The translations under genes and the position numbers were made by a program. This document shows positions 33,197 to 54,016 of a DNA stretch of 64,000 nucleotides, piece after piece. Numbering within the stretch: position 1 is the stretch's first letter; each line of letters begins with the position of its first letter. Origin of the DNA: Streptantibioticus cattleyicolor NRRL 8057 = DSM 46488. Its GTDB lineage: Bacteria; Actinomycetota; Actinomycetes; Streptomycetales; Streptomycetaceae. The notes beneath the pieces were generated by a model. That model was not told the origin of the DNA. It was given only the letters and a program-made list of their open reading frames with translations, and made no database searches. The stretch covers positions 3,286,001 through 3,350,000 of the forward strand of contig NC_017586.1 in the NCBI RefSeq assembly GCF_000240165.1. The letters are read 5' to 3'.

Positions 33197-33391
33197 CCAT
33201 CTTGGCTGACGGCGCCGCCGGCCCTACCGTTGACCGGCACCCGCGCTGTCCTCCGGCTTCCCCGGAGCCGTCAACCGGTCCCGTCCTCGACGCGCCGGAA
33301 ACTCGGCGGGGTGCCGTCCAGGTGTCAGAGGCGTGCCGTAGGAATGTGGCACGGAACCGGGGGTCCGCAGGACCGGGAGGAGGTGCGGGGG

Positions 33392-35548
33392 GTGAGCCAG
33401 CCCGAGCCCGTCGACGGCCACTGGAGCGAGGCTCCGCCGGCCGAGCCGCCCTTCCCCGACGGCCCCGGCGACCGGCTGCCGCCCCCTCGCTTCCGGCGCG
33501 GCGGCGACCAGCAGCGCGGCGGACGCGACCACGGCGGCCGTGACCGGGACGGCTGGGACGAGGGAGCCCGGGAGCGCGGCTGGGGCGATTCCGGCTTCGA
33601 GCGGGTCCCGCCGCAGGACATCGACGCCGAGCAGTCCGTGCTCGGCGGCATGCTGCTGTCGAAGGACGCCATCGCCGACGTGGTCGAGGTGCTCAAGGCC
33701 GGTGACTTCTACCGCCCCGCGCACGAGACCGTCTACAACGCCATCCTCGACCTCTACGCCCGTGGCGAGCCGGCCGACCCCATCACCGTCGCCGCCGAGC
33801 TGACCAAGCGCGGCGAGATCACCCGGGTCGGCGGCGCGGCCTATCTGCACACTCTCGTCAACGCCGTCCCCACGGCGGCCAACGCCGAGTACTACGCCGA
33901 GATCGTCCACGAGCGCGCGGTCCTGCGCCGCCTGGTCGAGGCCGGCACCCGCATCACCCAGATGGGTTATGCCGCCGACGGTGACGTGGACGAGATCGTC
34001 AACTCGGCGCAGGCCGAGATCTACGCGGTCACCGAGCAGCGCACCTCCGAGGACTACCTTCCGCTCAGCGAGATCATGGAGGGCGCCCTCGACGAGATCG
34101 AGGCGATCGGCTCGCGCAGCGGCCAGATGACCGGCGTGCCCACCGGCTTCACCGACCTCGACGCGCTCACCAACGGCCTCCACCCCGGCCAGATGGTCGT
34201 CATCGCGGCGCGTCCGGCGATGGGCAAGTGCCTGGCGGCCGGCAGCCGGGTGCTGGAGGCCCGCTCGGGGGAGTGGATCACCGTCGAGGAGTTCGTCCGG
34301 CGTGGCACGGCCGGCGAGGACCTCCAGGTGCTCACGCTCGGCGGCGACTGGAAGCTGCGCGCGGCCCGTCCGTCGGCGTACCACCACAACGGGGTCAAGC
34401 CGGTGCGGAAGCTGCGCACCGCGGACGGCGCCACGCTGCGGGCCACCGGCAACCATCCGATGCTCACGCTGCGCGGCTGGGTTCCGCTGGAGCGGCTGCG
34501 CCCCGGCGACCACGTCGCGGCCCCCGGCGGGCCGTCCGGCGCGGAGGGGCGGCCGGTCCCGGAGCCGGTGTGGGAGCTGATCGAGGCCGAGAAGGCCGGG
34601 CTGACCTGGGCCGAGGTCAACGAACGGGCCGGGCTGCCGGCCGGTCACGACTGGCGGCCCGGGAACCCCGTCGACCGGGCCCGCCTGCTCGACCTGGCCA
34701 AGGCGCTCGACTCGCGGGCGCTGGTGGACCTCGCCGAGTCCGACGTGCGCTGGGACCGGGTGGTCTCCAACGAGCCGGACGGCACCGAGGCGGTCTACGA
34801 CCTGACGGTCGAGGGCACGCACAGCTTCGTCGCCGAGGGCCTGGTCGTCCACAACTCCACGCTCGCCCTGGACTTCGCCCGCTCCGCGTCGATCGCGCAC
34901 GGCCTACCGAGCGTCTTCTTCTCGCTGGAGATGGGGCGCAACGAGATCGCCATGCGCCTGCTGTCGGCCGAGGCACGGGTGGCCCTGCACCACATGCGGT
35001 CGGGCAACATGACGGACGACGACTGGACGCGGCTGGCCCGCCGGATGCCCGAGGTCTCCGCCGGTCCCCTCTACATCGACGACTCGCCCAACCTGTCGAT
35101 GATGGAGATCCGTGCCAAGTGCCGCCGCCTCAAGCAGCGCAACGACCTGCGGCTGGTCGTCATCGACTACCTCCAGCTGATGCAGTCGGGCGGCTCCCGG
35201 CGCCCCGAGAGCCGCCAGCAGGAGGTCTCGGAGATGTCCCGTAACCTCAAGCTGCTCGCCAAGGAGCTGGAAGTCCCCGTCATCGCACTCTCCCAGCTCA
35301 ACCGTGGCCCCGAGCAGCGCACCGACAAGAAGCCCATGGTCTCCGACCTGCGCGAATCCGGCTCCATCGAGCAGGACGCCGACATGGTGATCCTGCTGCA
35401 CCGCGAGGACGCCTACGAGAAGGAGTCCCCCCGGGCCGGCGAGGCCGACCTCATCGTCGCCAAGCACCGCAACGGCCCCACCGCCACCATCACGGTGGCC
35501 TTCCAGGGGCACTACTCCCGCTTCGTGGACATGGCCGGAAACGTCTGA
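33392..35548 (+). CDS. dnaB: Replicative DNA helicase DnaB containing an intein
   Basis: DnaB is the hexameric 5'-3' helicase that unwinds DNA at the fork. A 718-residue precursor is expected, 509 after splicing. GTG 33392 begins MSQPEPVDG after GGGAGGAGG. The N-terminal DnaB domain (PPQDIDAEQSVLGGMLLS) starts near residue 70. The ATPase domain begins at about 235, and its P-loop AARPAMGK/STLALDF is split by an intein between Lys and Ser. Walker B (LVVIDYLQLM) and the H4 motif (ALSQLNRG) are intact. The Tn7-like transposon duplication begins two bases after the stop codon. Confidence 0.96.
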   Translation: MSQPEPVDGHWSEAPPAEPPFPDGPGDRLPPPRFRRGGDQQRGGRDHGGRDRDGWDEGARERGWGDSGFERVPPQDIDAEQSVLGGMLLSKDAIADVVEVLKAGDFYRPAHETVYNAILDLYARGEPADPITVAAELTKRGEITRVGGAAYLHTLVNAVPTAANAEYYAEIVHERAVLRRLVEAGTRITQMGYAADGDVDEIVNSAQAEIYAVTEQRTSEDYLPLSEIMEGALDEIEAIGSRSGQMTGVPTGFTDLDALTNGLHPGQMVVIAARPAMGKCLAAGSRVLEARSGEWITVEEFVRRGTAGEDLQVLTLGGDWKLRAARPSAYHHNGVKPVRKLRTADGATLRATGNHPMLTLRGWVPLERLRPGDHVAAPGGPSGAEGRPVPEPVWELIEAEKAGLTWAEVNERAGLPAGHDWRPGNPVDRARLLDLAKALDSRALVDLAESDVRWDRVVSNEPDGTEAVYDLTVEGTHSFVAEGLVVHNSTLALDFARSASIAHGLPSVFFSLEMGRNEIAMRLLSAEARVALHHMRSGNMTDDDWTRLARRMPEVSAGPLYIDDSPNLSMMEIRAKCRRLKQRNDLRLVVIDYLQLMQSGGSRRPESRQQEVSEMSRNLKLLAKELEVPVIALSQLNRGPEQRTDKKPMVSDLRESGSIEQDADMVILLHREDAYEKESPRAGEADLIVAKHRNGPTATITVAFQGHYSRFVDMAGNV
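34229..34855 (+). mobile_element. DnaB mini-intein (209 residues)
   Basis: In-frame protein-splicing element at residues 280-488 of the precursor. It starts with the nucleophile Cys (block A, CLAAGSRVLEA), has block B with T-x-N-H (ATGNHPMLT), and block F/G ends VYDLTVEGTHSF...VVHN. The +1 residue is Ser of the P-loop. Between blocks B and F lie about 70 residues without LAGLIDADG or HNH motifs, so there is no active homing endonuclease. Splicing is needed to rebuild the Walker A motif, so dnaB activity depends on it. Confidence 0.93.
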
Positions 35549-35550
35549 CC

Positions 35551-35555
35551 GGAGC
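35551..35555. repeat. Left target-site duplication GGAGC
   Basis: GGAGC immediately before the transposon end; the second copy is at 53988-53992. Five-base duplications are typical of Tn7-like transposition. Confidence 0.9.
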
Positions 35556-35600
35556 TGTAGGTTCCCATTTCTTGTGTCCCATTCTCATTCTCTGTGTCCC
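35556..35600 (+). repeat. dnaB-proximal transposon end with TnsB-site-like repeats
   Basis: Terminal 29 bases TGTAGG-N13-TGTCCCATTC, then a second TGTGTCCC 20 bases after the first (35573-35580 and 35593-35600). Spaced short repeats like these are where TnsB binds in Tn7-family ends. Confidence 0.8.
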
Positions 35601-36263: not shown

Positions 36264-36426
36264 TGGGCCCTGCCTGGCTCGCGCATAGTTTCGATGGTTC
36301 ATGCGGAGGGGGCGCGTCGGCATGCCCATCGCTCCCAGTGGGCACTTCTGTGTGGGGCAGGGGCACGGTAGTTAGCGATCTCTAGTCTGATCCCGTCATC
36401 GCTCGTCCCCGCTGTTGGGGGTGGGT

Positions 36427-39024
36427 ATGCCGCGTGTGCTTGGCGAACTCTCGATGAGCCTTCGCTATTCGGACGGGCAGGTCGACGAGGACCGGCTCTG
36501 GCCGACGACAGGCATCGATATCTTCGAGTCATCGGTGCCGTGGCGTACGTTCCGTTGGCGGCACGGCCAGAAGCACTACTCGGGTGCCTACTGGTCCTCC
36601 ACGATGCGTGACCACGTTGTCTACGAGTCGCGGCTTGAGCTGACGCGCCTGCTGTACGCCGACTTCGACCGGGATGTGACGGCGGTCTTCGCCCAGCCGT
36701 TCCTTCTCTCCACCACGGTGGACGAGCGACTGCGGCGCCACGTGCCGGACTTCCTCGTTCTGCGGGAGAGGGACGTACCGCTGGTCGTCGACGTAAAGCC
36801 GCGGCACCTGCTCAGCCGGACGAAGGTGAACTTCGCGCTCGGCTGGGCCCGCGAGGTCGTTCTGAGTCGCGGCTGGGACTTCGAGGTGTGGTGTGAGCCT
36901 CCGGAGACGGAGCTGGCGAATCTGCGCTTCCTCGCCGGGTACCGGCGCGACTGGTTCTTCAACGAGGACCTGCTTGCGGAGATCCGGGAGGCAGATTTGT
37001 ACGGGGCCTCGCTCGGCGAGGCGTTCCGTGCCTTTCCGCACCATCCGGAATGGAGGGTCCGGGCGGCTGTCCTGCGGCTGCTGTGGTGCCAGCACTTCGT
37101 GACGGATCTTGCTGTGCCTCTGTCCGAGCGACACGAGCTTCGGCAGGGGACGGCTGCCGTGACGGGCTCCGGCAGGTACGAACTTCCCCCGGTCGTCGTG
37201 GACGGTGAGCAGGGCATCGACGCCTCGGAGAGCGAAACGACGGTTTATGGGCGGGAGCCTCGCTCGGGAGGTCGGGTGAACGAGTCCGCGGTACGTGTCG
37301 GCGTGGGCACGAGGCTGAAGTACAACGGCGAAGTCGTCACGGTGGAGGAGATGTTCGCCTCCCCGGCCGGCAACGAGGTCCTGGTGCGCGACGGTCGGGG
37401 CCGCCGACTCCGGTTGTCACTACGGGAGGCACTCGCCTCCGGACGCGCCGGGATCATCCCGGAAGGGCCGGGGCCCGGGGCCGATGAGCCACGCGAGGCG
37501 GCCTCTGTGGTGCTGGCACAGCTCACCGACGAGGAGTTGCAGGCAGTGCGTGAGCGCGCCGCCCACATCAACGAGGTCCTCTACGGCTTCCGGTCGGGGA
37601 ACGCCGAGTTCCCAGAGGAGGGGGAACCGAGAGCGCCGTACGCGGCGACAGTTCCCAAGCTGCAGCGGTACGCGGCCAAGGCCGACGAACTCGGGGTGAG
37701 CGTACGCACCATCAAACGGTGGGTTCGGGCCTTCCGGGCAGATCGGGAAGCCGGTCTCGTTCATAACAGGCCAGATCATGGTGACGGCACCATGGGCGGG
37801 CTGGGGCGGGCCGATCCGCGGTGGGTGGAGATGGCCCTGGAGATCATGGCCGAGCATGAGAAGGACTCACAGCCGACCCGGGCCAAGGTCATCCGTACCA
37901 TCGGACCCCGGCTTGCCGCCCGCTATGGCGGCGGCGAGGTGAAGCTGCCGACTCGTGCGACGGCGTATCGCTGGCTCGAGGAGCTGGAGCGGCGCAAGCC
38001 GACCTTCAGGCTGAGCACGAAACGCAACCGGGACATCGCCGCAAGGCCGACGGGTGCGTACGGGAAGCTGCGGCCGACGAGGCCGGGCGAGTACCTGCTG
38101 ATGGACACCACGCGGCTGGACGTCTTCGCGATGGACCCGATCACGCTGAAGTGGGTGCAGGCTGAGTTGACGGTTGCGATGGACTGGTACGACAGGTGTG
38201 TCACGGGGATCAGGGTGACCCCGGTTTCCACGCAGTCCATCGACGTCGCGGCGGTGTTGTTCCAGACCTACCGTCCCCGTCCGGCGGGCAAGGACTGGCC
38301 TGCATCGGCGGTCTGGCCCGATCACGGCATTCCCCGCACGGTCTTCGTGGAGCGTGAAGCTCTCGAAGCAGGCGGCGGAGACGATAAGGCCGGCGGAGAG
38401 AGGGGTGTCGCGGGGCCGGCCATCGTGCCGGAGACCATCGTGGTCGACCACGGCAAGCCGTTCATCAGCGAGCACGTCACTTCGGTCTGCCAGCGTCTCG
38501 GCCTGTCGATCCAACCGGCCCGTCTGCGAACGGGCCGGGACAAGGGTCCGATCGAGAGATTCTTCAAGACCCTGCGCGAAGGTCTGCTGGAGTCACTGCC
38601 CGGCTACAAGGGACCGGATGTGTTCTCGCGCGGAGAACGGCCGGAAGAGCAGGCGTTCTTCTTCCTCCACGAGCTGGAGGCGATCATCCGCGAGTGGGTG
38701 GCCTGCGTGTATCACGCGAGGCCCCACGACGGGTTGCTCGATACGTACGTGCCGGGGCTACGGCTGTCGCCGTCCGCGATGTTCGAACACGGGATCGCTC
38801 GCGCCGGATACATCGAGGTGCCGCGCGACCCGGCGCTTGGCTTCGAGTTCCTGAAGACCGAGTGGAAGCCGATCCACCACTACGGCGTCGAGATCCGCAA
38901 ATGCCGGTACAACGGGGAGGGCCTTGACGGCTATCGCGGTGAGACGAGCCCGTACACGGGGGCGAAGGCCAAGGGAATGTGGCCCATCCATGTCGACCCC
39001 GACAACATCAACTACCGGCGATGA
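36427..39024 (+). CDS. TnsA-TnsB fusion transposase
   Basis: One polypeptide (865 residues from ATG 36427; TTG 36415 and GTG 36421 are alternative starts) joins both catalytic subunits of Tn7-type cut-and-paste transposition. Residues 55-180 form the TnsA-like endonuclease, with E67, PDF (D108) and VVDVKP (D122, K124) as the E-D-(x)-x-K site that cuts 5' strands. A linker, a helix-turn-helix region (VRTIKRWVRAF) and the DDE (rve) core follow: D560 in LLMDTTRLD, D674 in IVVDHGKPF, E710 in GPIERFFKTL, then a Mu-type C-terminal beta domain. All catalytic residues look intact. Its stop overlaps the next start (ATGA). Confidence 0.92.
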   Translation: MPRVLGELSMSLRYSDGQVDEDRLWPTTGIDIFESSVPWRTFRWRHGQKHYSGAYWSSTMRDHVVYESRLELTRLLYADFDRDVTAVFAQPFLLSTTVDERLRRHVPDFLVLRERDVPLVVDVKPRHLLSRTKVNFALGWAREVVLSRGWDFEVWCEPPETELANLRFLAGYRRDWFFNEDLLAEIREADLYGASLGEAFRAFPHHPEWRVRAAVLRLLWCQHFVTDLAVPLSERHELRQGTAAVTGSGRYELPPVVVDGEQGIDASESETTVYGREPRSGGRVNESAVRVGVGTRLKYNGEVVTVEEMFASPAGNEVLVRDGRGRRLRLSLREALASGRAGIIPEGPGPGADEPREAASVVLAQLTDEELQAVRERAAHINEVLYGFRSGNAEFPEEGEPRAPYAATVPKLQRYAAKADELGVSVRTIKRWVRAFRADREAGLVHNRPDHGDGTMGGLGRADPRWVEMALEIMAEHEKDSQPTRAKVIRTIGPRLAARYGGGEVKLPTRATAYRWLEELERRKPTFRLSTKRNRDIAARPTGAYGKLRPTRPGEYLLMDTTRLDVFAMDPITLKWVQAELTVAMDWYDRCVTGIRVTPVSTQSIDVAAVLFQTYRPRPAGKDWPASAVWPDHGIPRTVFVEREALEAGGGDDKAGGERGVAGPAIVPETIVVDHGKPFISEHVTSVCQRLGLSIQPARLRTGRDKGPIERFFKTLREGLLESLPGYKGPDVFSRGERPEEQAFFFLHELEAIIREWVACVYHARPHDGLLDTYVPGLRLSPSAMFEHGIARAGYIEVPRDPALGFEFLKTEWKPIHHYGVEIRKCRYNGEGLDGYRGETSPYTGAKAKGMWPIHVDPDNINYRR

Positions 39025-39425
39025 AGTTCCCGATCAGCGGTCAGGCGATCGAGCTCGCCCGGAAGCTAGCGGGTAAAAAGTACCGCTTTCCCGACGACGA
39101 GACCGCCGTCGCCGAGCTTCTGGAACGCTGGCACCTCGGCCTGGGACTGACCATGGCCGAGCGGCGCATCGCCCTGCGACAGGCCCGCGAACAGTCCGTC
39201 TTCGACCTGCCCGCCACCGAGGACGACGACATTCGCACGCTGCCGTCGGTCGCCCGGATCTTCGCCGACGCCCGCGCCCTCGACGAGGAGACCGTCGAGG
39301 GCGCGGGCGTTGACGAGGCCGAGCCCTACGAAGGCCTCGCGCCCAGCGATGACGACGAGGAGGACGAACTTGACGGCCCGGATGCGGCCGATGACTTCTA
39401 CGCCGACGCCCTGGAGGACGCATGA
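39021..39425 (+). CDS. Small acidic protein between tnsAB and tnsC
   Basis: 134 residues; the ATG overlaps the tnsAB stop and the stop overlaps the tnsC start, so it is translated as part of the transposition operon. The N-terminal 60 residues are basic and helical (ARKLAGKKYRFPDDETAVAELLERW). The C-terminal 60 are strongly acidic (SDDDEEDELDGPDAADDF). I recognise no family. The position suggests an accessory factor linking transposase and TnsC, but that is inference. Confidence 0.8.
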   Translation: MKFPISGQAIELARKLAGKKYRFPDDETAVAELLERWHLGLGLTMAERRIALRQAREQSVFDLPATEDDDIRTLPSVARIFADARALDEETVEGAGVDEAEPYEGLAPSDDDEEDELDGPDAADDFYADALEDA

Positions 39426-39892
39426 TGCCGCCCTGTCCCACCGAGCCGGCCGAAGGTACGCGTCCCCGGCTGGACAACCTCACGCTCTCCCGCAAGGAGG
39501 GGCTGAGGGCCCTGGCCGAGGCACCCCGCCGCGTCCAACCGGAGATCTTGACCCCCAAGCAGATCGCTGCCCTCGGCGAGGCGGCGCGGCTGGAGTACGA
39601 CCACCTCCGCAGCGTCTGGCACGCCAACCTCGGCCCGCTCAAGACGCCGCAGCTCGAAGCACTGCATGAGGACCTGTGGGACATCATCGCCAGCAATCAG
39701 CAGGACGGAGACAAGGCCAAGGGAGCCGTCGCGGTGGACGCGTTCCCCGGACTCGGGAAGACCACGGCAGTACTGGACTTCGCCCTGAAATACCACCAGA
39801 AGGAGATCGCCCGGGCCGGAGCCTTCACCGCCTCCGGGCACGAACGGTGGCCCGTCTGCCGAGTCGGCCTCACCAGCAACATCGGCATGAAG
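39422..39892 (+). pseudogene. tnsC 5' part (AAA+ ATPase, interrupted by an IS3-family element)
   Basis: First 157 codons of the regulator that assembles on DNA, links target selection to the transposase and hydrolyses ATP. Walker A is FPGLGKTTA (about residues 108-116). Translation as found stops at TGA on entering the insertion sequence (residues NIGMK then stop). The C-terminal part resumes at 41199 in the same frame once the element and one AAG copy are removed, giving an intact 386-residue TnsC. Confidence 0.9.
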
Positions 39893-39963
39893 TGAGCTGC
39901 ACTGATCTTCGTGGAGTCCTTGAAGCCTGGGTTACGATCCAGGCGTAAGGAGAACCACCTGCA

Positions 39964-40275
39964 GTGCCAGCACCACGTAAGTACCCCGATGAACTCCGCG
40001 AGCGCGCCGTCCGCGAGGTCCGCTCGACCGGCCGCCCAGTGACGCATGTCGCCCGCGACCTCGGCATCCACAAGGAGGCCCTGCGGTCATGGGTTCGCCA
40101 GGCCGAGGCCGACGCCGGCGAGCGCGACGACCGCCTGACCAGCTCCGAGCTGGAGGAGCTGAAGCAACTCCGGAAAGAGAATGCCGAGTTGAGGCGGGCC
40201 AACGAGATTCTCAAGGCCGCCAGCGTGTTTTTTGCCCAGGAGATCGACCGTCCCCGGACGAGGCCGAGCAGGTGA
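39964..40275 (+). CDS. IS3-family transposase OrfA
   Basis: 103 residues: a helix-turn-helix (RPVTHVARDLGIHKEALRSW, about residues 25-45) and a leucine-zipper-like segment (ELEELKQLRKENAELRRANEIL). GTG start after AAGGAG. A T6 run (40228-40233, GTG TTT TTT GCC) near the 3' end is the probable -1 frameshift site producing OrfAB. Confidence 0.93.
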   Translation: MPAPRKYPDELRERAVREVRSTGRPVTHVARDLGIHKEALRSWVRQAEADAGERDDRLTSSELEELKQLRKENAELRRANEILKAASVFFAQEIDRPRTRPSR

Positions 40276-41156
40276 TCGACCACCTGCGAGACAAGGGCCT
40301 CGGGGTCGATCCCGTCTGCCGGGTGCTGGGCTTGTCTCCCTCGACGTACTTCGCGCGCAAGACGCGACCGAAGTCCGCCCGCCGGTTGCGTGATGAAGAG
40401 CTGATTCCGCTGGTCACAGCCGCGTGGGAGGACTCCGGCCGCACCTACGGCGCCCGCCGGGTCACCCGCGCGCTGGTCCGCGCCGGCCACGCGGTGGCCC
40501 GCTGCACGGTCGAGCGGCTGATGCGGGAGCTCGGGATCGAGGGCGTCATCCGCGGGCAACGTCGTCGCACCACGGTCCCCGAGCCGACCGCGCCGCGTCC
40601 GCCGGATCTGGTCAACCGGCGGTTCACCGCCGAGCGGCCGAACCAGCTGTGGTTGGCGGACCTGACCTACATCCGCACGTGGTCGGGCTGGGTCTACGTG
40701 GCGTTCGTCCTGGACGCGTACTCCCGCCGGATCGTGGGCTGGCAGGCCGCCACCCACATGCGCACGGACCTGCCGCTGGACGCACTGGAGATGGCGCTGT
40801 GGCGGCAGCAGATCAAGAAGGACGCCGGCCTCATTCATCACAGCGACCGCGGGTCGCAATACGTGTCCATTCGCTATACGGAGCGATTGGCCGAGGCCGG
40901 CGCCTCCGCGTCCGTGGGCTCCGTCGCCGATTCGTACGACAACGCGATGGCCGAGGCCTTGAATGGCACATTCAAGGCCGAACTGATCGAGCATCAGGGC
41001 CCGTGGCGGGACTTCGACGAAGTCGAGCGGGCCGTCTTCCAGTGGGTCGCGTGGTACAACGGTGAACGACTCCACTCCGCCCTCGGCTACCTGCCACCCG
41101 ACGAGTACGAACAGGCGTACTGGGCGAGACCGGAGCAAGTCCCACAGACCGCTTGA
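40272..41156 (+). CDS. IS3-family transposase OrfB (DDE integrase core)
   Basis: Frame -1 to OrfA, expressed mainly as the OrfAB fusion after slipping on the T6 run; GTG 40272 is the internal start. The N-terminal HTH_21-type region is followed by the DDE core: LWLADLTYIRTWSGW (first D), IHHSDRGSQYVS (second D), DNAMAEALNGTFKAELI (E). It looks intact, so the element may still be mobile. Confidence 0.93.
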   Translation: MIDHLRDKGLGVDPVCRVLGLSPSTYFARKTRPKSARRLRDEELIPLVTAAWEDSGRTYGARRVTRALVRAGHAVARCTVERLMRELGIEGVIRGQRRRTTVPEPTAPRPPDLVNRRFTAERPNQLWLADLTYIRTWSGWVYVAFVLDAYSRRIVGWQAATHMRTDLPLDALEMALWRQQIKKDAGLIHHSDRGSQYVSIRYTERLAEAGASASVGSVADSYDNAMAEALNGTFKAELIEHQGPWRDFDEVERAVFQWVAWYNGERLHSALGYLPPDEYEQAYWARPEQVPQTA

Positions 41157-41198
41157 TCACACGATCGCGGACTCTACGAAAGTCGGGGCAGCTCAAAG

Positions 41199-41888
41199 GA
41201 CTTCAACCGAGCCCTGCTGGAGTTCTTCGCACACCCCGGCCGCAAGAGCGGCACGGCCGCGCTGTTCGTCCAGCGTGCCCTGGACTGCGTCCTGGAATGC
41301 GAGACCAAACTACTGATCATCGACGACCTGCACTTCCTCAAGTGGCAGGACAAAAACGGCAAGGAGGTCAGCAACCACTTCAAGTACATCGCCAACGAGT
41401 TCCCGGTCACCCTCATCTTCATCGGCGTCGAACTGGGCAACCGAGGCCTGTACTCCGAGTCCGACGCCCGCGGCGACATCACCCTCGCCCAGACCGCGCG
41501 CCGCACCACCCCGCTGACCATGGACGCCTACTCGGTGCGCAACGACAAGGAACGACGACAGTGGCGCAAGCTCATGCTGGGGCTCGAACAGCGCCTCGTC
41601 CTGGCCCGAAAATATCCCGGCATGCTCGCTGACGACCTGACTGACTACCTCTACACCCGCACCACCGGCCACATCGGCTCGTTGATGACGCTCATCAACC
41701 GCGGCTGCCAGAGAGCAGCCCGCACCGGCGCCGAACTCCTTGACGAGGACCTGTTGGATCAGGTGAAACTCGATGCCGGGGCGGAGCGGGCGCGCAAGGC
41801 GCTGCAGAAGAAGTTCGAGCGCAAGCGGATGACGACCAAGCCCCGCTCCCGCACCGCGAAGACCGCGTCGGCCAAGAACTTGGCATGA
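41199..41888 (+). pseudogene. tnsC 3' part
   Basis: The 229 codons that complete TnsC. The frame runs DFNRALLEFF, then Walker B LLIIDDLHFL and sensor region TLIFIGVELGNRG, then the helical C-terminal part with a Lys/Arg-rich tail (KKFERKRMTTKPRSRTAK). It has no start of its own, although ATG 41520 opens a 122-residue downstream part that could be translated. The last four bases overlap the tniQ start (ATGA). Confidence 0.9.
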
Positions 41889-42961
41889 GCCCCGTCCGTA
41901 CGCTGCCGCTGCGTCAGGCCCCGCTCGCCGGGGAGGCCCTGGACTCCTGGATCGAGGCTCTCTCCGTGAGGCTTCGGACACCGCTGGGTGAAGTGATGCA
42001 GAGTGTAGGTCTGCCACTTCTGCGGAAGACCGGCAACCAGCTGCTCGGCATTCCGCCGGACTGGACGATCCTGTTGGGCTCGCAACAGACCGCCGCCTTG
42101 TCCGTGGCGACGGGCCTGGACGCGGCCCGACTCCGTGAAATGACGCTGCTCCACTACGACCAGCGGGCCCTGGAGATCAACCACGAGCGTCACTTCGTGA
42201 ACCGCCGGGTGCTCTGGGGACGGGGCGGCGGCTCCCGCTTCTGTCCCGACTGCTTGGCGGAATCCGACGGGCGCTGGATGCTGTCCTGGCGGCTGGGCTG
42301 GTCCTTCGCCTGTCTACGCCATCGCCGGCTGCTGGCGGACAACTGTCCAGGCTGCGGGCGCGTCCCTCGTCTGCGACCCCGAAGCTCGCAATGCATTCCC
42401 AGGCCCCGGTACTGCGGGAACGCGCCCGCAATATCGGACGGTTCCTTCACCAGCGGTTGTGGCCTCGACCTCGCGCAGACGCTCACCCTCCGTCTGCCCG
42501 TCGGCCATCCGGCTATGGCCGCGCAGAGCCGCATCACGGACATCGTCGAGAGCGGCACCTCTACCTTCGGCGTCTACGCCCTCATGCCGCAGCCGGCGCC
42601 GGGCGCACTCAGCGACATCCGTGCCCTCTGCGGACGCGTGCTGTCCGACCTCTCCGCCGAGGACCTCATCCGCCGGGCCCCGTACGACATCGCCGGAGCT
42701 CACCTCCGTCCCGATGCAGGCTGCACGCTCGCCGGCCGGGCGGGGGATCGACCCGGCTTCATGGCCCCGGCCAGAGCCGTGAGCGTGGCGAGCGCCGTCA
42801 CCGTCGCGCTGGGCATCCTCGACCAGCCGGACATTCACCAGGCCGGCGAGGCGATGCGGGACCTGCTCACGGATCTGCACGACGACCTTTCCGAGGTCAG
42901 CATCGGCCAGCTCAAGAACTGGGGGACCCGAGTGACCCCCGTTTTCACTGGCATCCAGCTA
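41885..42961 (+). pseudogene. tniQ 5' part (interrupted by tandem IS630)
   Basis: First 359 codons of the target-selection protein. The TniQ domain is clear: PLAGEALDSWIEALSVRL near the N-terminus and the zinc-binding CPDCLAESDGRWMLSWRL ... FACLRHRRLLADNCPGCG (four Cys plus His, about residues 120-160). The frame enters the first IS630 copy at TA 42960-42961 and stops at once. With one TA kept and both copies removed, codons continue at 45224. Confidence 0.9.
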
Positions 42962-44047
42962 GTGTCCTGAGTCGTTAATTCGTGTGCAGTATGCGGCGAG
43001 AGTGCCGAGGATGTCGTCGGCGGTCTTCGTCCAGACGAGCGGCTTGGGGTTCTTGTTCCATTCGTTGATCCAGCCGCGGATGTCCCGTTCGAGTTCGACG
43101 ACGCTGTGGTGGGCCGAGCGGCGGAGTTTGCGGCAGGTCAGCTCGGCGAACCAGCGCTCGACGAGGTTGAGCCAGGACGCCGAGGTGGGGGTGAAGTGCA
43201 GGTGGAAGCGGGGGTGCCGGAGCAGCCACTTCTTGACCGGCTCGGTCTTGTGGGTGGCGTAGTTGTCCAGGACCAGGTGCAGGTCCAGGTCCTTGGGTAC
43301 GGCGGCGTCGATGGTCTTCAGGAAGCGGAGGAACTCCTGGTGGCGATGGCGTCGGTAGTGCTGGGCTATGACCGAGCCGGACGCGATGTCCAAGGCGGCG
43401 AACAGGCTGGTCGTGCCGTGCCGGACGTAGTCGTGCGTCATCTTCGCCGGCGTGGCCGGCGCCATCGGCAGCACCGGCTGGGTCCGGTCCAGGGCCTGTA
43501 TCTGCGACTTCTCGTCCACTGCCAGGACCAGGGCGTTCTGCGGCGGGGACAGGTAAATGCCCACCACGTCGCGGACCTTGGTCACGAACTGCGGGTCGGT
43601 CGACAGCTTCCAGGTCTCCACGATGTGCGGCTTGAGGCCGAACGCCCGCCAGATCCGGGAGACAGCCGACTGCGACATCCCCACCGCCTCGGCCATCGAA
43701 CGCGTCGACCAATGCGAATCTCCTGTCGGCGGCGCCTGACCGAGCGTCCTGGCGACCAGGGCCTCGACCTGCTCGTCCGTAATCTTCCGCGGCGCCCCCG
43801 AACGCGGCCGGTCCACCAGGCCCTCCAGCCGGTCCGCGGCAAACCGGGACCGCCACTTGCGCACCGTCTCCCTCGAGACACCCAGGTCATCCGCGACCTG
43901 CGCGTTCGGCCGGCCCTCCGCGCACGCCAACACGATCCTCGACCGCAGCACCAGCGCCTGAGAGGCGGTCTGCTTGCGCATCCAACCCCGCAGCACCCGG
44001 CGTTCGTGATCGGACAACTCCAGCGGCAACGGCTTCGGACCAGGCAC
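42959..44047 (-). CDS. IS630-family transposase, copy 1
   Basis: 362 residues. N-terminal HTH (NAQVADDLGVSRETVRKWRSRF), then the DDE core: LVLAVDEKSQIQ (D), LVLDNYATHKT (D), SWLNLVERWFAEL (E). The TAG stop is completed by the flanking TA and the next target base, so it exists only after insertion. It differs from copy 2 by one residue (Leu where copy 2 has Phe near the C-terminus). Confidence 0.94.
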   Translation of the reverse strand: MPGPKPLPLELSDHERRVLRGWMRKQTASQALVLRSRIVLACAEGRPNAQVADDLGVSRETVRKWRSRFAADRLEGLVDRPRSGAPRKITDEQVEALVARTLGQAPPTGDSHWSTRSMAEAVGMSQSAVSRIWRAFGLKPHIVETWKLSTDPQFVTKVRDVVGIYLSPPQNALVLAVDEKSQIQALDRTQPVLPMAPATPAKMTHDYVRHGTTSLFAALDIASGSVIAQHYRRHRHQEFLRFLKTIDAAVPKDLDLHLVLDNYATHKTEPVKKWLLRHPRFHLHFTPTSASWLNLVERWFAELTCRKLRRSAHHSVVELERDIRGWINEWNKNPKPLVWTKTADDILGTLAAYCTRINDSGH

Positions 44048-44090
44048 CGCCCCACCCTACAACTGCAAGGGAACTAACGACTCGGGACAC
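42962..44090 (-). mobile_element. IS630-family element, copy 1 (1129 bp)
   Basis: Terminal repeats GTGTCCTGAGTCGTTA (42962-42977) and GTGTCCCGAGTCGTTA (complement of 44075-44090), 15 of 16 matching. Flanked by TA at 42960-42961 and 44091-44092, the usual IS630/Tc1 target. Confidence 0.94.
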
Positions 44091-45178
44091 TAGTGTCCTG
44101 AGTCGTTAATTCGTGTGCAGTATGCGGCGAGAGTGCCGAGGATGTCGTCGGCGGTCTTCGTCCAGACGAACGGCTTGGGGTTCTTGTTCCATTCGTTGAT
44201 CCAGCCGCGGATGTCCCGTTCGAGTTCGACGACGCTGTGGTGGGCCGAGCGGCGGAGTTTGCGGCAGGTCAGCTCGGCGAACCAGCGCTCGACGAGGTTG
44301 AGCCAGGACGCCGAGGTGGGGGTGAAGTGCAGGTGGAAGCGGGGGTGCCGGAGCAGCCACTTCTTGACCGGCTCGGTCTTGTGGGTGGCGTAGTTGTCCA
44401 GGACCAGGTGCAGGTCCAGGTCCTTGGGTACGGCGGCGTCGATGGTCTTCAGGAAGCGGAGGAACTCCTGGTGGCGATGGCGTCGGTAGTGCTGGGCTAT
44501 GACCGAGCCGGACGCGATGTCCAAGGCGGCGAACAGGCTGGTCGTGCCGTGCCGGACGTAGTCGTGCGTCATCTTCGCCGGCGTGGCCGGCGCCATCGGC
44601 AGCACCGGCTGGGTCCGGTCCAGGGCCTGTATCTGCGACTTCTCGTCCACTGCCAGGACCAGGGCGTTCTGCGGCGGGGACAGGTAAATGCCCACCACGT
44701 CGCGGACCTTGGTCACGAACTGCGGGTCGGTCGACAGCTTCCAGGTCTCCACGATGTGCGGCTTGAGGCCGAACGCCCGCCAGATCCGGGAGACAGCCGA
44801 CTGCGACATCCCCACCGCCTCGGCCATCGAACGCGTCGACCAATGCGAATCTCCTGTCGGCGGCGCCTGACCGAGCGTCCTGGCGACCAGGGCCTCGACC
44901 TGCTCGTCCGTAATCTTCCGCGGCGCCCCCGAACGCGGCCGGTCCACCAGGCCCTCCAGCCGGTCCGCGGCAAACCGGGACCGCCACTTGCGCACCGTCT
45001 CCCTCGAGACACCCAGGTCATCCGCGACCTGCGCGTTCGGCCGGCCCTCCGCGCACGCCAACACGATCCTCGACCGCAGCACCAGCGCCTGAGAGGCGGT
45101 CTGCTTGCGCATCCAACCCCGCAGCACCCGGCGTTCGTGATCGGACAACTCCAGCGGCAACGGCTTCGGACCAGGCAC
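44090..45178 (-). CDS. IS630-family transposase, copy 2
   Basis: Same 362-residue protein with all DDE residues present; residue difference L to F from the 44170 base change. Head-to-tail copies allow the inner pair of ends to act as a strong junction, so the array may be unstable. Confidence 0.94.
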   Translation of the reverse strand: MPGPKPLPLELSDHERRVLRGWMRKQTASQALVLRSRIVLACAEGRPNAQVADDLGVSRETVRKWRSRFAADRLEGLVDRPRSGAPRKITDEQVEALVARTLGQAPPTGDSHWSTRSMAEAVGMSQSAVSRIWRAFGLKPHIVETWKLSTDPQFVTKVRDVVGIYLSPPQNALVLAVDEKSQIQALDRTQPVLPMAPATPAKMTHDYVRHGTTSLFAALDIASGSVIAQHYRRHRHQEFLRFLKTIDAAVPKDLDLHLVLDNYATHKTEPVKKWLLRHPRFHLHFTPTSASWLNLVERWFAELTCRKLRRSAHHSVVELERDIRGWINEWNKNPKPFVWTKTADDILGTLAAYCTRINDSGH

Positions 45179-45221
45179 CGCCCCACCCTACAACTGCAAG
45201 GGAACTAACGACTCGGGACAC
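44093..45221 (-). mobile_element. IS630-family element, copy 2 (1129 bp)
   Basis: Directly repeated with copy 1, the two sharing the central TA (44091-44092); its outer TA is 45222-45223. The one base difference I noticed is at 44170 (A) against 43039 (G). Confidence 0.94.
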
Positions 45222-45223
45222 TA

Positions 45224-46807
45224 GCCGCGGCAAAAGGCGGCCTGCGTCCCGCCAACTATCTGCGGCATCGCATGACGTCACCGGTGCCAAGGCGACCGAT
45301 GGCGAACAGCGAGGACATCACACGGCGGAGCCGGAAGGTACCCAGTACCTTCTGGAACCTGTGGACCCTGCGGCTCACCCCGCCCGACGGCACCGTCCCG
45401 CGCATCCTGGCTCCCGCCCTGGCCGCCGCCCTGCTGACCGTCGACAGCCGCACCGACTTCGACACCGCCACGGAACTCATGGGATCGGTGGCCGACCGTA
45501 TGGACGTCTCCCACGCCCTTCAGCGCTTGGACGATCAGCCGCAGTGGCCCCACATCGCCACCGCCCTGACCAGGCTGGCCGACTACCTCGACACCTCGGA
45601 CGTCCCCATCGACTACGCGCGGCGACGCAGTCTCGACTACACCACACTGCTGCCGCCGGGACGCTGGGGTGAGATCTGCCGCCGCACCGGCACACACCCC
45701 GGAGGCGAGCGCCGAGAACAGATCATCCGCTGCCACCTCTTCCAGCGCATCAGCGGATTCCCGCCCGAATTCGCGCCTGGCGCCCCGACCCTTGGTGCGG
45801 CGTTGTTCCGTACGGAATACTTCCGCTTCCTCGCCCTGCAGAGCCCGCAGTTGGCGGAGGCACTCGATGTCGAGGCGCAGGCCTTCCTCGCCACCCGGCA
45901 CATCCACGACGAGCCGGTCGCCTGGCAACCGCCCAAGGCCCTCCTGGACGGACTCGCCCTCCCCGGCCTCGACCCAGACCAAGTCGACCTACCACAACTG
46001 CATCGCCTCATCCGCCAGCGCAGGCACGCTGTCCAGTACGCGGCCGACGTCCTCGGCACTTCCGTCGAAGCCGTCCGGTACCTCCTGGGAGGACATCCCG
46101 CCCGACTGCCCCCGCCGACGACATCCCAGGGCACGGCCAGGGAAGACTACGCCAGGGCCATGCAGACCCTGCCGAAGGAACGCATGGCCCGTCTGTACCT
46201 CGACGAGCACCGTTCTCTGTCGCAGATCTCCGAGCTCACCGGCTTCTCCTACAGGGTGCTGACCCGTCTCGCCCGTGAGTACGCGATCCCGATGCGCAGG
46301 CGCGAGGATTACAAGAAGCATGCACCGGTCGAACGGGACTGGCTCTACGACCAGTACGTCGTGCACCGTCGGCTCTTGTCCGATCTCGCTCGCGAGAGGG
46401 GCATGCACACGAAGACCATGGCCGACTGGGCGCGTCACCACGAGATTCCACTTCGCCATGGCGGAGCACCCCCGGCTGCGTATCGCGCGCCGGACTGGGC
46501 TGCCCGTGTTCCGGCGGCCGTGCGGGACGCTCTGACCGCCCCCTACGCCTGGAAATGGTTGGAGATCGTCGTTGCCGCACTGCCGTACGCCACGATGAGG
46601 GAGGCAGCCCAGGCCCTCGGTGTCCACCCTTCCACGCTGATCAAGAAGATCAACGAATTCGAAAGGGAGCTGGGCCACGCCCTGATCGAACGTGCTGAAC
46701 GTGGCCGAGGGATGCGACCGACCCCGTTTGGTGCCGAGGTAGCGCAGGCCGTTAGGACGGCCATCACAGGCTCCAACAGAGCGGGGCCGCTCAGTTCCCC
46801 TGCATGA
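45224..46807 (+). pseudogene. tniQ 3' part with three helix-turn-helix regions
   Basis: The 527 codons completing an 886-residue TniQ/TnsD-like protein. They continue the frame broken at 42961 (LAAAKGGLRPANYL). Two sequence-similar HTH units follow (LSQISELTGFSYRVLTRL and LSDLARERGMHTKTMADW). The end is a winged helix like that of LysR regulators (TMREAAQALGVHPSTLIKKI ... ELGHALIERA ... MRPTPFG, reconstructed residues about 813-870). ATG 45272 could start a truncated 511-residue product. The extended DNA-binding part is what would recognise the dnaB-end target. Confidence 0.85.
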
Positions 46808-47399: not shown

Positions 47400-48374
47400 G
47401 TGCCTGACTCGATAGCCGTGCCGACGGGTGTCCAACCAATTAGCTTCGACGTGCACGCAGTCCGCGGGGGAAGTCCCGGCGGAGCCCGCGACGACTTCGA
47501 AACGATGATCGCTCAGCTTGCCGCCGCGACGACCCCAAACGTACGGTCCATCGCTGCCAACCCGGGCGACTGGGGTATCGACGCCTTCGCCGGAAACCTC
47601 GGCGGGGCGATCACAGTGTGGCAGTCCAAGTACTTCATGCCGGTCACCACCAAGAAGCACGTACAGCAGGTCAAAGACTCGCTCGACAACGTGCTGAAGG
47701 CAGCCGTCAAGAACGGCCACACCATCGCCAGCTGGATTCTGTGCATCCCCTCCAGCATGGACGGCCCCATGACGGCATGGTGGGACACGTGGACGAAGGC
47801 GAGGGAGAAGGAACACAGCCTCGTCATCCAACTCTGGGACGAGACCGCCCTCCGGAAGAAGCTGCTTAGCCCCGAGGGCGACGACGTGCGTCGCGGCTTC
47901 TACGAGACGTACGCTCAGGCCGTCCCTGCCCCCGTGGAGCAGCTTCGGCTGGTACTCGAAGTCGAGGACGACAAGGCAGCCGCCCTTGGCTCCGCCTTGT
48001 TCATTCGGCAGATGACTGAGGCCGGCCACGTGGAGCTGGACTCGGCCAAGAGGCAGTTTTTCAATGCCGATCTGGTGGCTCGAGAGATCGCGCACAAGGA
48101 TGTTCCGGCGGAGGTGGCGGCGCTCAGTTCCGCCGATGCGACGCTCCACGGTCTATGGGAGATGCAGTTCAACGAATGCGTGGCCGAGGACGCGCTTCGG
48201 GTTCTCCATACCCGTGTCTGGCGGGACGTACGCAACGAGCACGACAAACTGCCGAAGTCGCTCCGCCTGGAGCTGGTGCACAGCTGGGGGCTGGTCCACC
48301 GGCTCGTGGACAACCGCAAAGCGGGCTGGGTCAAACACTGGCGGCAGATCGCCGCCGAGCACTCCGACGGCTGA
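47400..48374 (+). CDS. Predicted PD-(D/E)xK-type effector of an ABC-3C-like defence operon
   Basis: 324 residues. The N-terminal half resembles Mrr/restriction-endonuclease-like folds: DDFE (E34), GDWGIDAFAG (D61) and AITVWQSKYF (Q75, K77), the E/D/QxK arrangement, followed by a helix that starts TTKKHVQQVKDSL. The C-terminal half is helical and unidentified. It is the first gene before a middle-component-like protein and a DUF3732-type ATPase, which is how nuclease effectors of ABC three-component systems are placed. The role as invading-DNA nuclease is inference. Confidence 0.75.
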   Translation: MPDSIAVPTGVQPISFDVHAVRGGSPGGARDDFETMIAQLAAATTPNVRSIAANPGDWGIDAFAGNLGGAITVWQSKYFMPVTTKKHVQQVKDSLDNVLKAAVKNGHTIASWILCIPSSMDGPMTAWWDTWTKAREKEHSLVIQLWDETALRKKLLSPEGDDVRRGFYETYAQAVPAPVEQLRLVLEVEDDKAAALGSALFIRQMTEAGHVELDSAKRQFFNADLVAREIAHKDVPAEVAALSSADATLHGLWEMQFNECVAEDALRVLHTRVWRDVRNEHDKLPKSLRLELVHSWGLVHRLVDNRKAGWVKHWRQIAAEHSDG

Positions 48375-48415
48375 CACGCCGTCTCCTGTCCTGTCAGACC
48401 TACGAGGAGTTCGCT

Positions 48416-48994
48416 GTGGAAGCACACCGGCCGGTGATGATGCCGGAGGACGAGGTGACCTTCCGGCTGGCGCAGCTGCTGCTTCTTCTCGACGCTGTCG
48501 CCGAACAGGACGTGAACGGGGCGAGCCTGGAGCGCATCGGGTACTACGACTTCCTGTCGGCGAATCCCTTCCTCGTCGTTGATTCCGACGGTCGGGAGGG
48601 CAATATGCTCAGGCTGGCCGGGTTCGATCCGCGGGTGCTCTCGTACGCGTCATCCTCGCAGCGCTTCACTAGTCGACGCGAGCGCATCCAGCACGATCTC
48701 GGACTGCTCGTGGCTTACGGGTGTTGCGAGGTCCACAACCGCAACGGCGCCTTCGCCTATTCGATCAGCAACCGCGGTCGGGAAATCGGGGCTCGCTTCA
48801 CCGCCACCTACGCCGCGTCGTTCACCACTGCGGCGTCCATCGTCGTGCGTCGCCTCCGCAAGCTCAGTGACAAGGCGCTGCGGGAACAGACCGCACGGTG
48901 GCTGCGACCGGATGGAGAGGGCGGGCCAGGTGCCGCGCTCCTCAGCGTGCTGGGGCCGGGACCGCAGGCACGTGACATGCCCTGGGAGGGATGA
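48416..48994 (+). CDS. ABC-3C-like middle component
   Basis: 192 residues from GTG 48416 with AGGAG seven bases before it. A small helical/winged protein: LAQLLLLLDAVAEQDVNGASLERIGYYDFLSANP is the typical start of middle components (the stretch LERIGYYDFLSANP is diagnostic), then SRRERIQHDLGLLVAYGCCEV and a helical C-terminal part. In this class it bridges effector and ATPase. The stop overlaps the ATPase start (ATGA). Confidence 0.78.
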   Translation: MEAHRPVMMPEDEVTFRLAQLLLLLDAVAEQDVNGASLERIGYYDFLSANPFLVVDSDGREGNMLRLAGFDPRVLSYASSSQRFTSRRERIQHDLGLLVAYGCCEVHNRNGAFAYSISNRGREIGARFTATYAASFTTAASIVVRRLRKLSDKALREQTARWLRPDGEGGPGAALLSVLGPGPQARDMPWEG

Positions 48995-51006
48995 CCACCA
49001 TGCAGCCTCTGCCTGGCATCCGGATCCGGCGACTGCGCCTTGCTGGCGTCAGCCGGAATTATGACGTCGATTTCACGCAGGACCAGCGGGTGCGGGACCT
49101 GTCCGTGGTGGCCGGAGCATTTAGTTCGGGTAAGACCGCGGTGCTGGAGTTCATCGCCTACGGCCTCGGTGGGAAGCGCCATCCACGGCATCCTGAGGTG
49201 CTGCGAAAGGTCCGTTCCTGCCTTCTGGAAGTCGAGCTGTCCGGCGAACCGCACGTCATCGAGCGTCCGGTCGGGGAGCCATCGAAGGTCGCCTACGTAC
49301 GCCGGGGGACGCTGGACAGTCCGCCGCTCTCCAAGCCTGAGAGCAGGACCATCGAGCCGGCGGGAGCGCCCGAGAGCCTCTCCGCTCTGCTGCTGGGGCA
49401 CTGCAAGCTCGAAGGTGTCCAACTGCGGGAGGCCCCCTCCAGCCGTGAGTCCCGGACCGACCCCCTGAGCATCCGCGACCTCATGAACCTTGCGTTCTTG
49501 CCCAACGAGCGCATCGCCTCCAAGAACTTCCTGTTTGAGAACGAGTACATGAAGAAGCACAAGCTGAAGCAGGTGGTCGACGTCGTCTTTGGCGTTCACG
49601 ACGACCGTGCTGTCGAGCTTGGGCAACGCATCAAGGAACTGGGCACCCGACTCACCCAGGCACGCTCCGAACTCGCCGCAGCACGGGCGTTCGTCGATGA
49701 GCAGGACGTTCCCACGGTCGGCGCGCTGACCGCTGAGCAATACCAAGGCGAGCTGCGGGAGCTGACCGAGCAGCTACGGGCCCTCGATGAGGCAGCGCAA
49801 GCCGGCACCACCTTCGCTGGGCGTCTGCGCCGCGAGCACCAGGAAGCTGCCCAGCGCGCCCGGCGAGCCGCTGGCGTGGTACGTGACTGCGAGACGCAAC
49901 TCACCCGGATGATGCCACTACGGGCGCAGTACGCGGACGACCTTGTCAAGCTCAATATGCTGGCCGAAGCGCAGCGCCTGTTTGACCCCCTCAGCGTCAC
50001 GACCTGCCCGGCGTGCCTGAATCGGCTGCCCGCCCCCCCGTCGGTCGAGAACGGCTCGTGCAGTCTGTGCAGCCACGAGCTACCCCACGGCGACGAGCAC
50101 CTGACGCTCGGCACCGCCACAGCCGAGCACTCGTCGGATGAAGGGCGGTTGGATGTCGCGGCCGAGATCAGGGCCACCAAGGCCCGTTTGCAGGAGATCA
50201 CTGCCTACGTTGAGGGCCTGGACAGCTCGCTCGCCACGTTGAAGCTCCAGGCGGAAGACGCCGCCATCGACGAAGAACGTGCCGCGGCCGCTGTCGACGA
50301 AGCCACTTCGCCCACCGTCACCCCGTTCCTCGCCGCTCGCGACAACCTCCAGCGCCGGCGCGAGGAAGTCCTCCGTCATCTCCAGCACGCCGAGAACGCG
50401 ACGAAGCTTCAGGCTGGCCTGGAGAAGCGTGCCGCGCTCGTGGAGCGGCAGGAGGCACAGATCGAACGCCTGCGGGAGGAACGCGACCGGCTGGGAGATG
50501 CCGCACAGGACCGGGACCTGGCCGTCGGCCGAATCAGCGGCCGGTACGGCGAACTCCTGCGGCAGTGGCGCTACCCGAAACTCAGCCAGCCGGTGATTGA
50601 CACGAACCTGGTTCCTCACGTACGCGGCGACTCCTACCGCGAGGCATCATCCGGCGCCCGAACGCTCCTGACCTTGGCCTGGCAGCTGGCCGTCTTCGAG
50701 GTGGCCGTCGAAACATCGGCCGCCCACCCCGGCTTCCTCATGATCGACAGCCCGCAGAAGAACCTGGGCCACGGCGCCACCCGGGACGCGGTAATCGCGG
50801 ACGCGATCGCCATCGACGACTTCTACCGCCACCTGACCAGATGGCTGGGTGAAAAGGGCGCCGGTGCCCAGGTGATCATCGTCGACAACAGTCCGCCCAT
50901 GCTCGTGGAGGAGAACGTCGTGGTCCGGTACAGCCGCAATGAGGACCTGCCCCCCTACGGGCTGATCGACGACGAGACCACTACAGACGAAAGCCGCCCC
51001 GAATAA
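48991..51006 (+). CDS. SMC-like ATPase, DUF3732 type, of ABC-3C-like system
   Basis: 671 residues. Walker A GAFSSGKT (42-49) opens the N-terminal ATPase lobe. Two coiled-coil arms flank a zinc-hook-like pair CPAC (C339, C342) and CSLC (C357, C360). The C-terminal lobe has the signature-like SSGARTLLTLAWQL and Walker B FLMIDSPQKN (D586). The coils are short, so it is nearer to Rad50/DUF3732 ATPases than to SMC. It probably senses a DNA or nucleoprotein feature and releases the effector; that is known for the class only by comparison. Confidence 0.88.
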   Translation: MTTMQPLPGIRIRRLRLAGVSRNYDVDFTQDQRVRDLSVVAGAFSSGKTAVLEFIAYGLGGKRHPRHPEVLRKVRSCLLEVELSGEPHVIERPVGEPSKVAYVRRGTLDSPPLSKPESRTIEPAGAPESLSALLLGHCKLEGVQLREAPSSRESRTDPLSIRDLMNLAFLPNERIASKNFLFENEYMKKHKLKQVVDVVFGVHDDRAVELGQRIKELGTRLTQARSELAAARAFVDEQDVPTVGALTAEQYQGELRELTEQLRALDEAAQAGTTFAGRLRREHQEAAQRARRAAGVVRDCETQLTRMMPLRAQYADDLVKLNMLAEAQRLFDPLSVTTCPACLNRLPAPPSVENGSCSLCSHELPHGDEHLTLGTATAEHSSDEGRLDVAAEIRATKARLQEITAYVEGLDSSLATLKLQAEDAAIDEERAAAAVDEATSPTVTPFLAARDNLQRRREEVLRHLQHAENATKLQAGLEKRAALVERQEAQIERLREERDRLGDAAQDRDLAVGRISGRYGELLRQWRYPKLSQPVIDTNLVPHVRGDSYREASSGARTLLTLAWQLAVFEVAVETSAAHPGFLMIDSPQKNLGHGATRDAVIADAIAIDDFYRHLTRWLGEKGAGAQVIIVDNSPPMLVEENVVVRYSRNEDLPPYGLIDDETTTDESRPE

Positions 51007-53958: not shown

Positions 53959-53987
53959 GAATGGGACATTCCGATTGAGGGCCTACA
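53959..53987 (-). repeat. Distal transposon end
   Basis: Read inward: TGTAGG-N13-TGTCCCATTC, the same spacing as the other end. Followed by the second GGAGC (53988-53992). Near 53918-53934 AATGAGACGT repeats a motif found at about 35623 in the proximal end. Confidence 0.88.
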
Positions 53988-54016
53988 GGAGCCGACGCGG
54001 CGCGGGGAAGGTGTGA

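Follow-up and report, generated by a model that had tools for sequence, protein, structure and literature searches.

Which part of a TniQ/TnsD protein reads the chromosomal site of its transposon is the question raised by this locus. In the window (the whole stretch of 64,000 nucleotides that was analysed) a frame open from 45224 to 46804 encodes 527 amino acids, here called P0002, the C-terminal part of such a protein. The original prediction held that it ends in a LysR-like winged helix and that, if this is the target-recognition module, a regulator-type domain had been captured to read the chromosomal target. The evidence given below upholds the domain and turns against the role.

The gene belongs to a Tn7-like element of 18,432 nt (18.4-kb), delimited in the sequence by TGTAGG...CCTACA termini and by a GGAGC duplication at both ends (Table 1). 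The tniQ/tnsD gene is encoded together with tnsA/tnsB and tnsC inside these TGT/ACA termini, and the 5-bp duplication is present. The location at the 3' end of dnaB had been predicted correctly, as TGTAGG lies 7 nt past the dnaB stop codon. A Lamassu-type defence operon is placed between tniQ and the right end. The transposase genes were assigned with the help of relatives, the TnsA-like N and rve Pfam matches of the window being both below the curated cut-off. The tniQ copy is broken because the gene is interrupted by a DDE insertion sequence present twice in tandem, the last few codons of the 5' frame already lying inside the insertion sequence; long tniQ relatives without interruption exist, and the frame of L137 is one that is unbroken. 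The zinc-finger TniQ domain that had been expected ahead of the HTH units is indeed encoded (88.7 bits), but it lies outside 45224-46807, in 41885-42967. Since insertion sequences split both tnsC and tniQ, the element in this genome is probably immobile with its own proteins. The two copies inside tniQ (42959-45220) are near-identical and directly in tandem. In a related locus (L034, 1-3621) the dnaB matches are distributed in a way that suggests two inteins.

Table 1. Features of the Tn7-like element behind dnaB and of its TniQ C-terminal part (positions in the window).
Feature	Position	Strand	Residues of P0002	Evidence or remark
dnaB (host target gene), intein within helicase domain	33230..35548	+		Pfam DnaB_C, DnaB, Intein_splicing
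Target-site duplication GGAGC, 5-bp, left copy	35551..35555			sequence
Element left terminus TGTAGG	35556..35561	+		same terminus behind dnaB of relatives
TnsA-TnsB fusion (transposase)	36415..39024	+		Pfam TnsA-like N and rve; neighbours tnsC, tniQ in relatives
tnsC/tniB 5' piece, broken thereafter	39422..39895	+		kept in relatives
Transposase of tnsC-splitting insertion sequence	40089..41156	+		Pfam rve, HTH_21
tnsC/tniB 3' piece	41166..41888	+		Pfam TniB 32.1 bits, cut-off 22.4
tniQ/tnsD 5' part, TniQ zinc-finger domain	41885..42970	+		Pfam TniQ (PF06527) 88.7 bits, cut-off 27
Insertion sequence copy 1 (DDE_3 transposase) splitting tniQ	42959..44089	-		direct repeat, spacing 1131; Pfam DDE_3
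Insertion sequence copy 2, tandem	44090..45220	-		direct repeat; Pfam DDE_3
tniQ/tnsD 3' part: helical region, HTH-A, HTH-B, HTH-C, LysR-type winged helix	45224..46807	+		
HTH-A	45977..46105	+	252-294	model, profile-profile comparison
HTH-B	46163..46303	+	314-360	model, profile-profile comparison
HTH-C, proposed dnaB reader	46319..46459	+	366-412	recognition helix about 46400-46438
LysR-type winged helix and part of linker helix	46532..46774	+	437-517	Pfam, model, structure match
Lamassu-type defence cargo lmuA, lmuC, lmuB	47400..51006	+		PADLOC 346, 214, 776 bits
Element right terminus CCTACA	53982..53987	+		
Target-site duplication GGAGC, 5-bp, right copy	53988..53992			sequence

The C-terminal part contains three tri-helical HTH units that are mutually similar (profile-profile probability 95.8 for A-B, 98.3 for B-C and 77.3 for A-C), so that the similarity described in the original prediction stands while its count of two does not. 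They are followed by the winged helix, in which residues 443-503 score 44.7 bits with Pfam HTH_1 (LysR; profile positions 1-59 of 60), the cut-off being 26.6. The structure of P0002 was modelled from 28 aligned sequences with a mean pLDDT of 85.6, and the values for successive blocks of 10 residues between 441 and 510 were 85, 90, 90, 91, 87, 72 and 91. With Foldseek the C-terminal end of the model matched LysR DNA-binding domains with a probability of 1.00, although no E-value passes 0.001. VIA-align gave Z scores up to 10.2 over 84 residues (BenM DNA-binding domain), and its first 39 rows were all LysR-type proteins. Moreover, the profile of the relatives matched MetR (3.6e-10) and BenM (2.3e-08) among PDB sequences, its top match being 8vd6 'CAP REPEAT' (2.5e-10) on the HTH region. 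With HTH_1 over its cut-off and the LysR winged-helix fold in the model, the winged helix is a genuine LysR-type DNA-binding domain by both sequence and structure, and the LysR relationship claimed for this long C-terminus is borne out. The resemblance to regulators such as BenM, CbnR and OxyR covers the winged helix and the start of the linker helix. Unlike them, P0002 has no effector-binding domain and ends 24 residues past the HTH_1 match, so it is not a whole LysR-type regulator, and it bears the module at the C-terminus whereas theirs occupies residues 1 to about 86. When a 412-residue model was compared with the PDB, no TnsD chain was among the matches listed, only HTH pieces, an absence that proves nothing.

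The position of the insertions relative to dnaB was compared over 26 dnaB insertions, which are related rows. Six duplicate records were left out, together with L050, where the transposon end was not located, L068, which has another type of end and a distance of 33 nt, and L151, L155, L166 and L169 (motif GACATG absent or terminus TGTAGA). The distance from the ATG of the FVDM motif to the transposon end is 19-23 nt (mean 21.15, sd 1.16), whereas that from the dnaB stop is 2-11 nt (sd 2.04). A longer DnaB tail goes with a shorter stop distance (rho -0.64, p 0.0005, again over related rows; tails of 12 nt in 22 rows, 15 in three and 18 in one). As the ATG distance is tight and the stop distance variable, the distance ruler seems, from these distances, to lie inside the dnaB coding sequence and not at the stop. 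A ruler in coding sequence is likewise used by Tn7 TnsD on glmS (PMC2918618). Mycobacterial insertions measured by eye gave 19 nt (L151), 20 nt (L169) and 19 nt (L166). Two dnaB insertions are off the usual spacing, L155 with 16 nt (by eye) and L068 with 33 nt, and these were counted against the main reading set out below. In genome G153 two different Tn7-like elements (L041 and L045) stand in series behind dnaB, the terminus of the second touching the right end of the first; their termini and flanks suggest that the two inserted at one and the same position. Six loci fetched as possible empty dnaB sites (L108, L110, L112, L120, L122 and L123) have by eye a transposon-end-like sequence just past the stop, and therefore the dnaB site looks heavily used.

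The first scan of genome contigs with P0002 as sole query confirmed no relative. Matches to P0002 were found in 61 of 394 genomes of the family and in three of 396 genomes of a phylum sample, the window's own being included in both, and an alignment search gave 52 loci, among them Mycobacterium, Mycolicibacterium, Nocardia, Rhodococcus and Actinospica. The TniQ Pfam domain is present in all 32 aligned relatives, HTH_1 in 25 and PadR in five (E 0.01). Two likely PadR-bearing members scanned singly gave 30.9 and 24.7 bits for LysR, the latter below the cut-off, and PadR below its cut-off in both. In the subclade of L056, L058, L059, L060 and L062 a PadR-like winged helix seems, by eye, to come after the LysR-like one.

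A tree was made from 68 TniQ frames and the window after 21 of 89 frames had been dropped as duplicate records or fragments; several of the rows kept are near-identical. The LysR module was scored at a threshold of 12 bits with a home-made profile, built from 30 regulators encoded in the genome that contains the window. It is found in 54 of the 68 rows, the weakest of which scored 12.0 to 13.2 bits, and in 55 of 69 with the window, which was scored positive on its Pfam match. The module is present on both main branches of the tree, at dnaB and at other sites, and where it is in frame the wing and the start of the linker helix are conserved. A recent capture of LysR for dnaB was ruled out by this presence on both main branches and at different sites. 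Among other TniQ frames of the same bacterial family none of the 42 sampled from 83 TniQ matches listed carried LysR (best score 3.0 bits); at least four of this background (G020, G029, G037 and G065) adjoin fragments of the present subfamily and are themselves parts of its broken genes. Being common in the subfamily and found in 0 of the 42 frames sampled, the LysR arrangement therefore belongs to one TniQ subfamily. Judged by these profiles it is old there and is not general among TniQ proteins.

A site was counted as other than dnaB when the sequence fetched next to the tnsAB end contained no dnaB. L068 was placed in this class despite having, about 4 kb upstream of tnsAB, a dnaB that is followed by an end-like sequence. 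Based only on the reading frame adjoining the tnsAB end, the candidate targets are genes of the OmpA family (L048, and L047, whose unscanned frame ends alike), NlpC/P60 (L056 and L060, and L058, whose unscanned frame resembles that of L056), a PucR-type protein (L061), glyceraldehyde-3-phosphate dehydrogenase (L063) and an ABC transporter (L070 and L071), while L049 and L051 gave no clear answer. Transfer RNA genes were considered as targets at loci without an evident gene and were rejected, with none found in the 13 loci scanned. The element of L049 resembles that of the window closely in TnsAB (87% identity) and much less in its TniQ pieces (42% and 37%), and it has no dnaB next to it. This apparent natural swap agrees with TniQ setting the insertion site.

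If the LysR domain were the reader of dnaB it should follow the target, and in several cases it does not. It is absent or broken in four dnaB-inserted tree members (L046, L052, L155 and L166) and in L181, a fragment that is off the tree. L046, L052 and L181 are nevertheless inserted 20, 19 and 22 nt from the ATG, and L166 and L155 at the 19 and 16 nt estimated by eye. With tblastn a LysR remnant was detected behind the frame in L052, L165 and L067, and none downstream of L046, L155, L166 and L181. On the tree LysR changes at least ten times and the target class five times, and of five independent pairs differing in LysR 4.5 on average have the same target class, too few pairs to reach significance.

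Exchanges of the module point in the same direction. L035 and L139, both at dnaB, are 90% identical over P0002 residues 6-400 and 52% in the LysR part; similarly, L041 and L040, also at dnaB, have strongly different LysR parts in otherwise very similar TniQs. Conversely, L047 (beside an OmpA-like gene, as L048) and L144 (at dnaB) share 70% of the LysR part and 37% of the rest. In L039 and L038 HTH-C and LysR are 80-95% identical (57% in the last window) and the rest 42-70%. The breakpoint of the L035/L139 exchange lies in the linker after HTH-C. In L035/L139 and L041/L040 similarity is not recovered after the stop and the exchanged stretch continues into the DNA behind tniQ; the LysR exchange may therefore be a by-product of an exchange of the right arm. 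A link between LysR type and transposon-end sequence was ruled out, since within each of the pairs L040/L041 and L035/L139 the left ends are almost alike over the part displayed and the modules differ. The elements without LysR might be inactive relics. LysR has been lost in some lineages and swapped near the linker in others, with the element still at dnaB, and the domain looks dispensable for site choice. A module that is present whatever the target, missing or broken in four dnaB members and exchanged between dnaB TniQs gives no support to the capture proposed in the original prediction.

A better candidate for the reader was obtained by scanning 499 windows, each 11 residues long, over which seven Streptomyces-side and four Mycobacterium/Nocardia dnaB targeters were compared with six other-target rows. 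Residues 393-403, in the recognition helix of HTH-C, ranked first of 499, with an identity of 0.69 between the dnaB clades against 0.26 to the other-target rows, in a contrast that is post hoc and drawn from 11 and 6 rows that are related. Across the 499 windows the difference averages 0.035 (sd 0.087). At the recognition helices of HTH-B, LysR and HTH-A the highest-placed windows ranked 25, 149 and 309. Among pairs of like divergence the identity of the HTH-C helix is 0.49 for 76 dnaB-dnaB pairs and 0.16 for 148 dnaB-other pairs, compared with 0.52 (35 pairs) and 0.43 (87 pairs) for the LysR helix and 0.40 and 0.34 for the whole core. Moreover L045 and L055, which are both at dnaB and belong to different clades, have GMSDTxLxRRAR in common in the HTH-C helix, and this motif is absent in the NlpC/P60-side sister clade of L055. 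Two observations on LysR were counted against the main reading. The LysR helix of L055 is somewhat closer to dnaB targeters (identity 0.54 and 0.56) than to the sister clade (0.41), with 0.53 to other-target rows. LysR residues 450-460 came within the top ten of the scan (0.49 against 0.34) and, when L162 was the contrast, took third rank (0.49 against 0.18). The recognition helix of HTH-C follows the target better than that of LysR.

We consider it somewhat probable (about 0.58) that this is a TniQ/TnsD in which dnaB is read by HTH-C together with HTH-B and the LysR winged helix forms an accessory module, ancestral and open to exchange. The protein would act as target selector for a Tn7-like element that carries a TnsA-TnsB fusion and inserts directly behind dnaB in actinobacteria. 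By analogy with Tn7, the N-terminal TniQ domain would pass the target to TnsC, and the three tandem HTH units of the C-terminal part are predicted to bind DNA. From the covariation described above HTH-C, helped by HTH-B, may read conserved dnaB codons near the 3' end, which would direct insertion to the observed 19-23 nt past the FVDM ATG. The LysR winged helix would then be an old accessory DNA-binding module placed after a poorly ordered linker, which probably adds affinity, a contact further upstream or pairing via the linker helix, and would not choose the target. Its long conservation argues for some function, and the main reading leaves that function vague.

The reading in which LysR is itself the main reader, captured for dnaB, has in its favour a bona fide DNA-binding fold at the extreme C-terminus, some target signal at residues 450-460 and the fact that C-terminal truncations of Tn7 TnsD, even short ones, all abolish DNA binding (PMC2918618). 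Nevertheless the module is present at several unrelated sites and lacking or broken in the four dnaB members and in L181, modules of 52% identity go with the same target and more similar ones with different targets, and the recognition helix has little target signal (rank 149 of 499). We regard this reading as quite unlikely; dnaB is probably read by a part other than the LysR domain. TniQ could also bind its own promoter or the transposon ends through LysR and control transposition, as CvkR does in the V-K CAST. LysR domains are regulatory by origin, the module type is independent of the target, and the stand-alone MerR protein CvkR is a published parallel (PMC9938897), but the different module types on elements with nearly identical left ends (L040/L041 and L035/L139) and the lack of an effector domain make such control unlikely.

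It can also be argued that the module is nearly without function and hitchhikes with the exchanged right arm and the cargo. This would agree with the at least ten changes of state on the tree, with the remnants that L052, L165 and L067 have after the frame and with the similarity not regained past the stop in L035/L139 and L041/L040. However, a module kept in frame in 55 of 69 tree members, with the wing and the start of the linker helix conserved, makes this very improbable in our view. A more speculative proposal, which we hold as possible but doubtful, is that actinobacterial Tn7-like TniQs have a swappable second DNA-reading channel, LysR (sometimes with a PadR-like domain), shuffled at the conserved linker while HTH-C keeps the attachment site. 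The module would then read other DNA, for instance that of its own element, of a competitor element occupying the attachment site or of plasmid targets.

Compared with known systems, the TniQ described here, with its HTH-C as preferred reader, can be set beside TnsD of Tn7, which has a 36-bp site in glmS and directs insertion about 20 bp past the stop (PMC2918618). Alike are the N-terminal TniQ/zinc-finger domain, the long DNA-binding C-terminus and the fixed distance from a conserved 3' coding end (PMC2918618). Unlike TnsD, the present protein targets dnaB, has three HTH repeats and a LysR-type winged helix, and its relatives are inserted 2-11 nt past the stop (n=26). The C-termini of TniQ/TnsD proteins were described in a survey as long, diverse and HTH-bearing (PMC10293859), in the main text of which the words 'lysr', 'winged' and 'actinobact' are absent. 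The legend to figure 4 of a 2024 review reports AcrR, XRE and CI domains fused to TniQ (PMC11406308). These too are regulator-type DNA-binding domains fused in modular fashion; LysR and PadR are unnamed in that passage of the legend, and the LysR of the window type does not track the target. In the work of Benler (2021) the actinobacteria-dominated clade 2 of Tn7-like transposons is given as not experimentally characterised, and Tn7-like elements with defence genes as cargo are reported (PMC8649781). The actinobacterial hosts and the defence cargo are points of likeness with the window element; neither 'dnaB' nor 'Streptomyces' occurs in the main text of that work. In the literature searched, mostly open papers and their main texts, no description was found of a TniQ with a LysR or winged-helix fusion or of dnaB as a Tn7-like attachment site. 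The statement that the arrangement had not been seen described thus holds within that scope, and the LysR fusion appears to be unreported there. Modular TniQ/TnsD C-termini are already established and the LysR fusion is an added variant of that modularity.

Tn7-like target selectors are of interest as natural insertion tools. Here one site (dnaB) is served by many natural selectors with and without LysR, and a candidate helix is available in HTH-C, which makes the question of which domain reads the site testable by domain swaps. The finding suggests that a regulator-type domain on a TniQ need not be the target reader.
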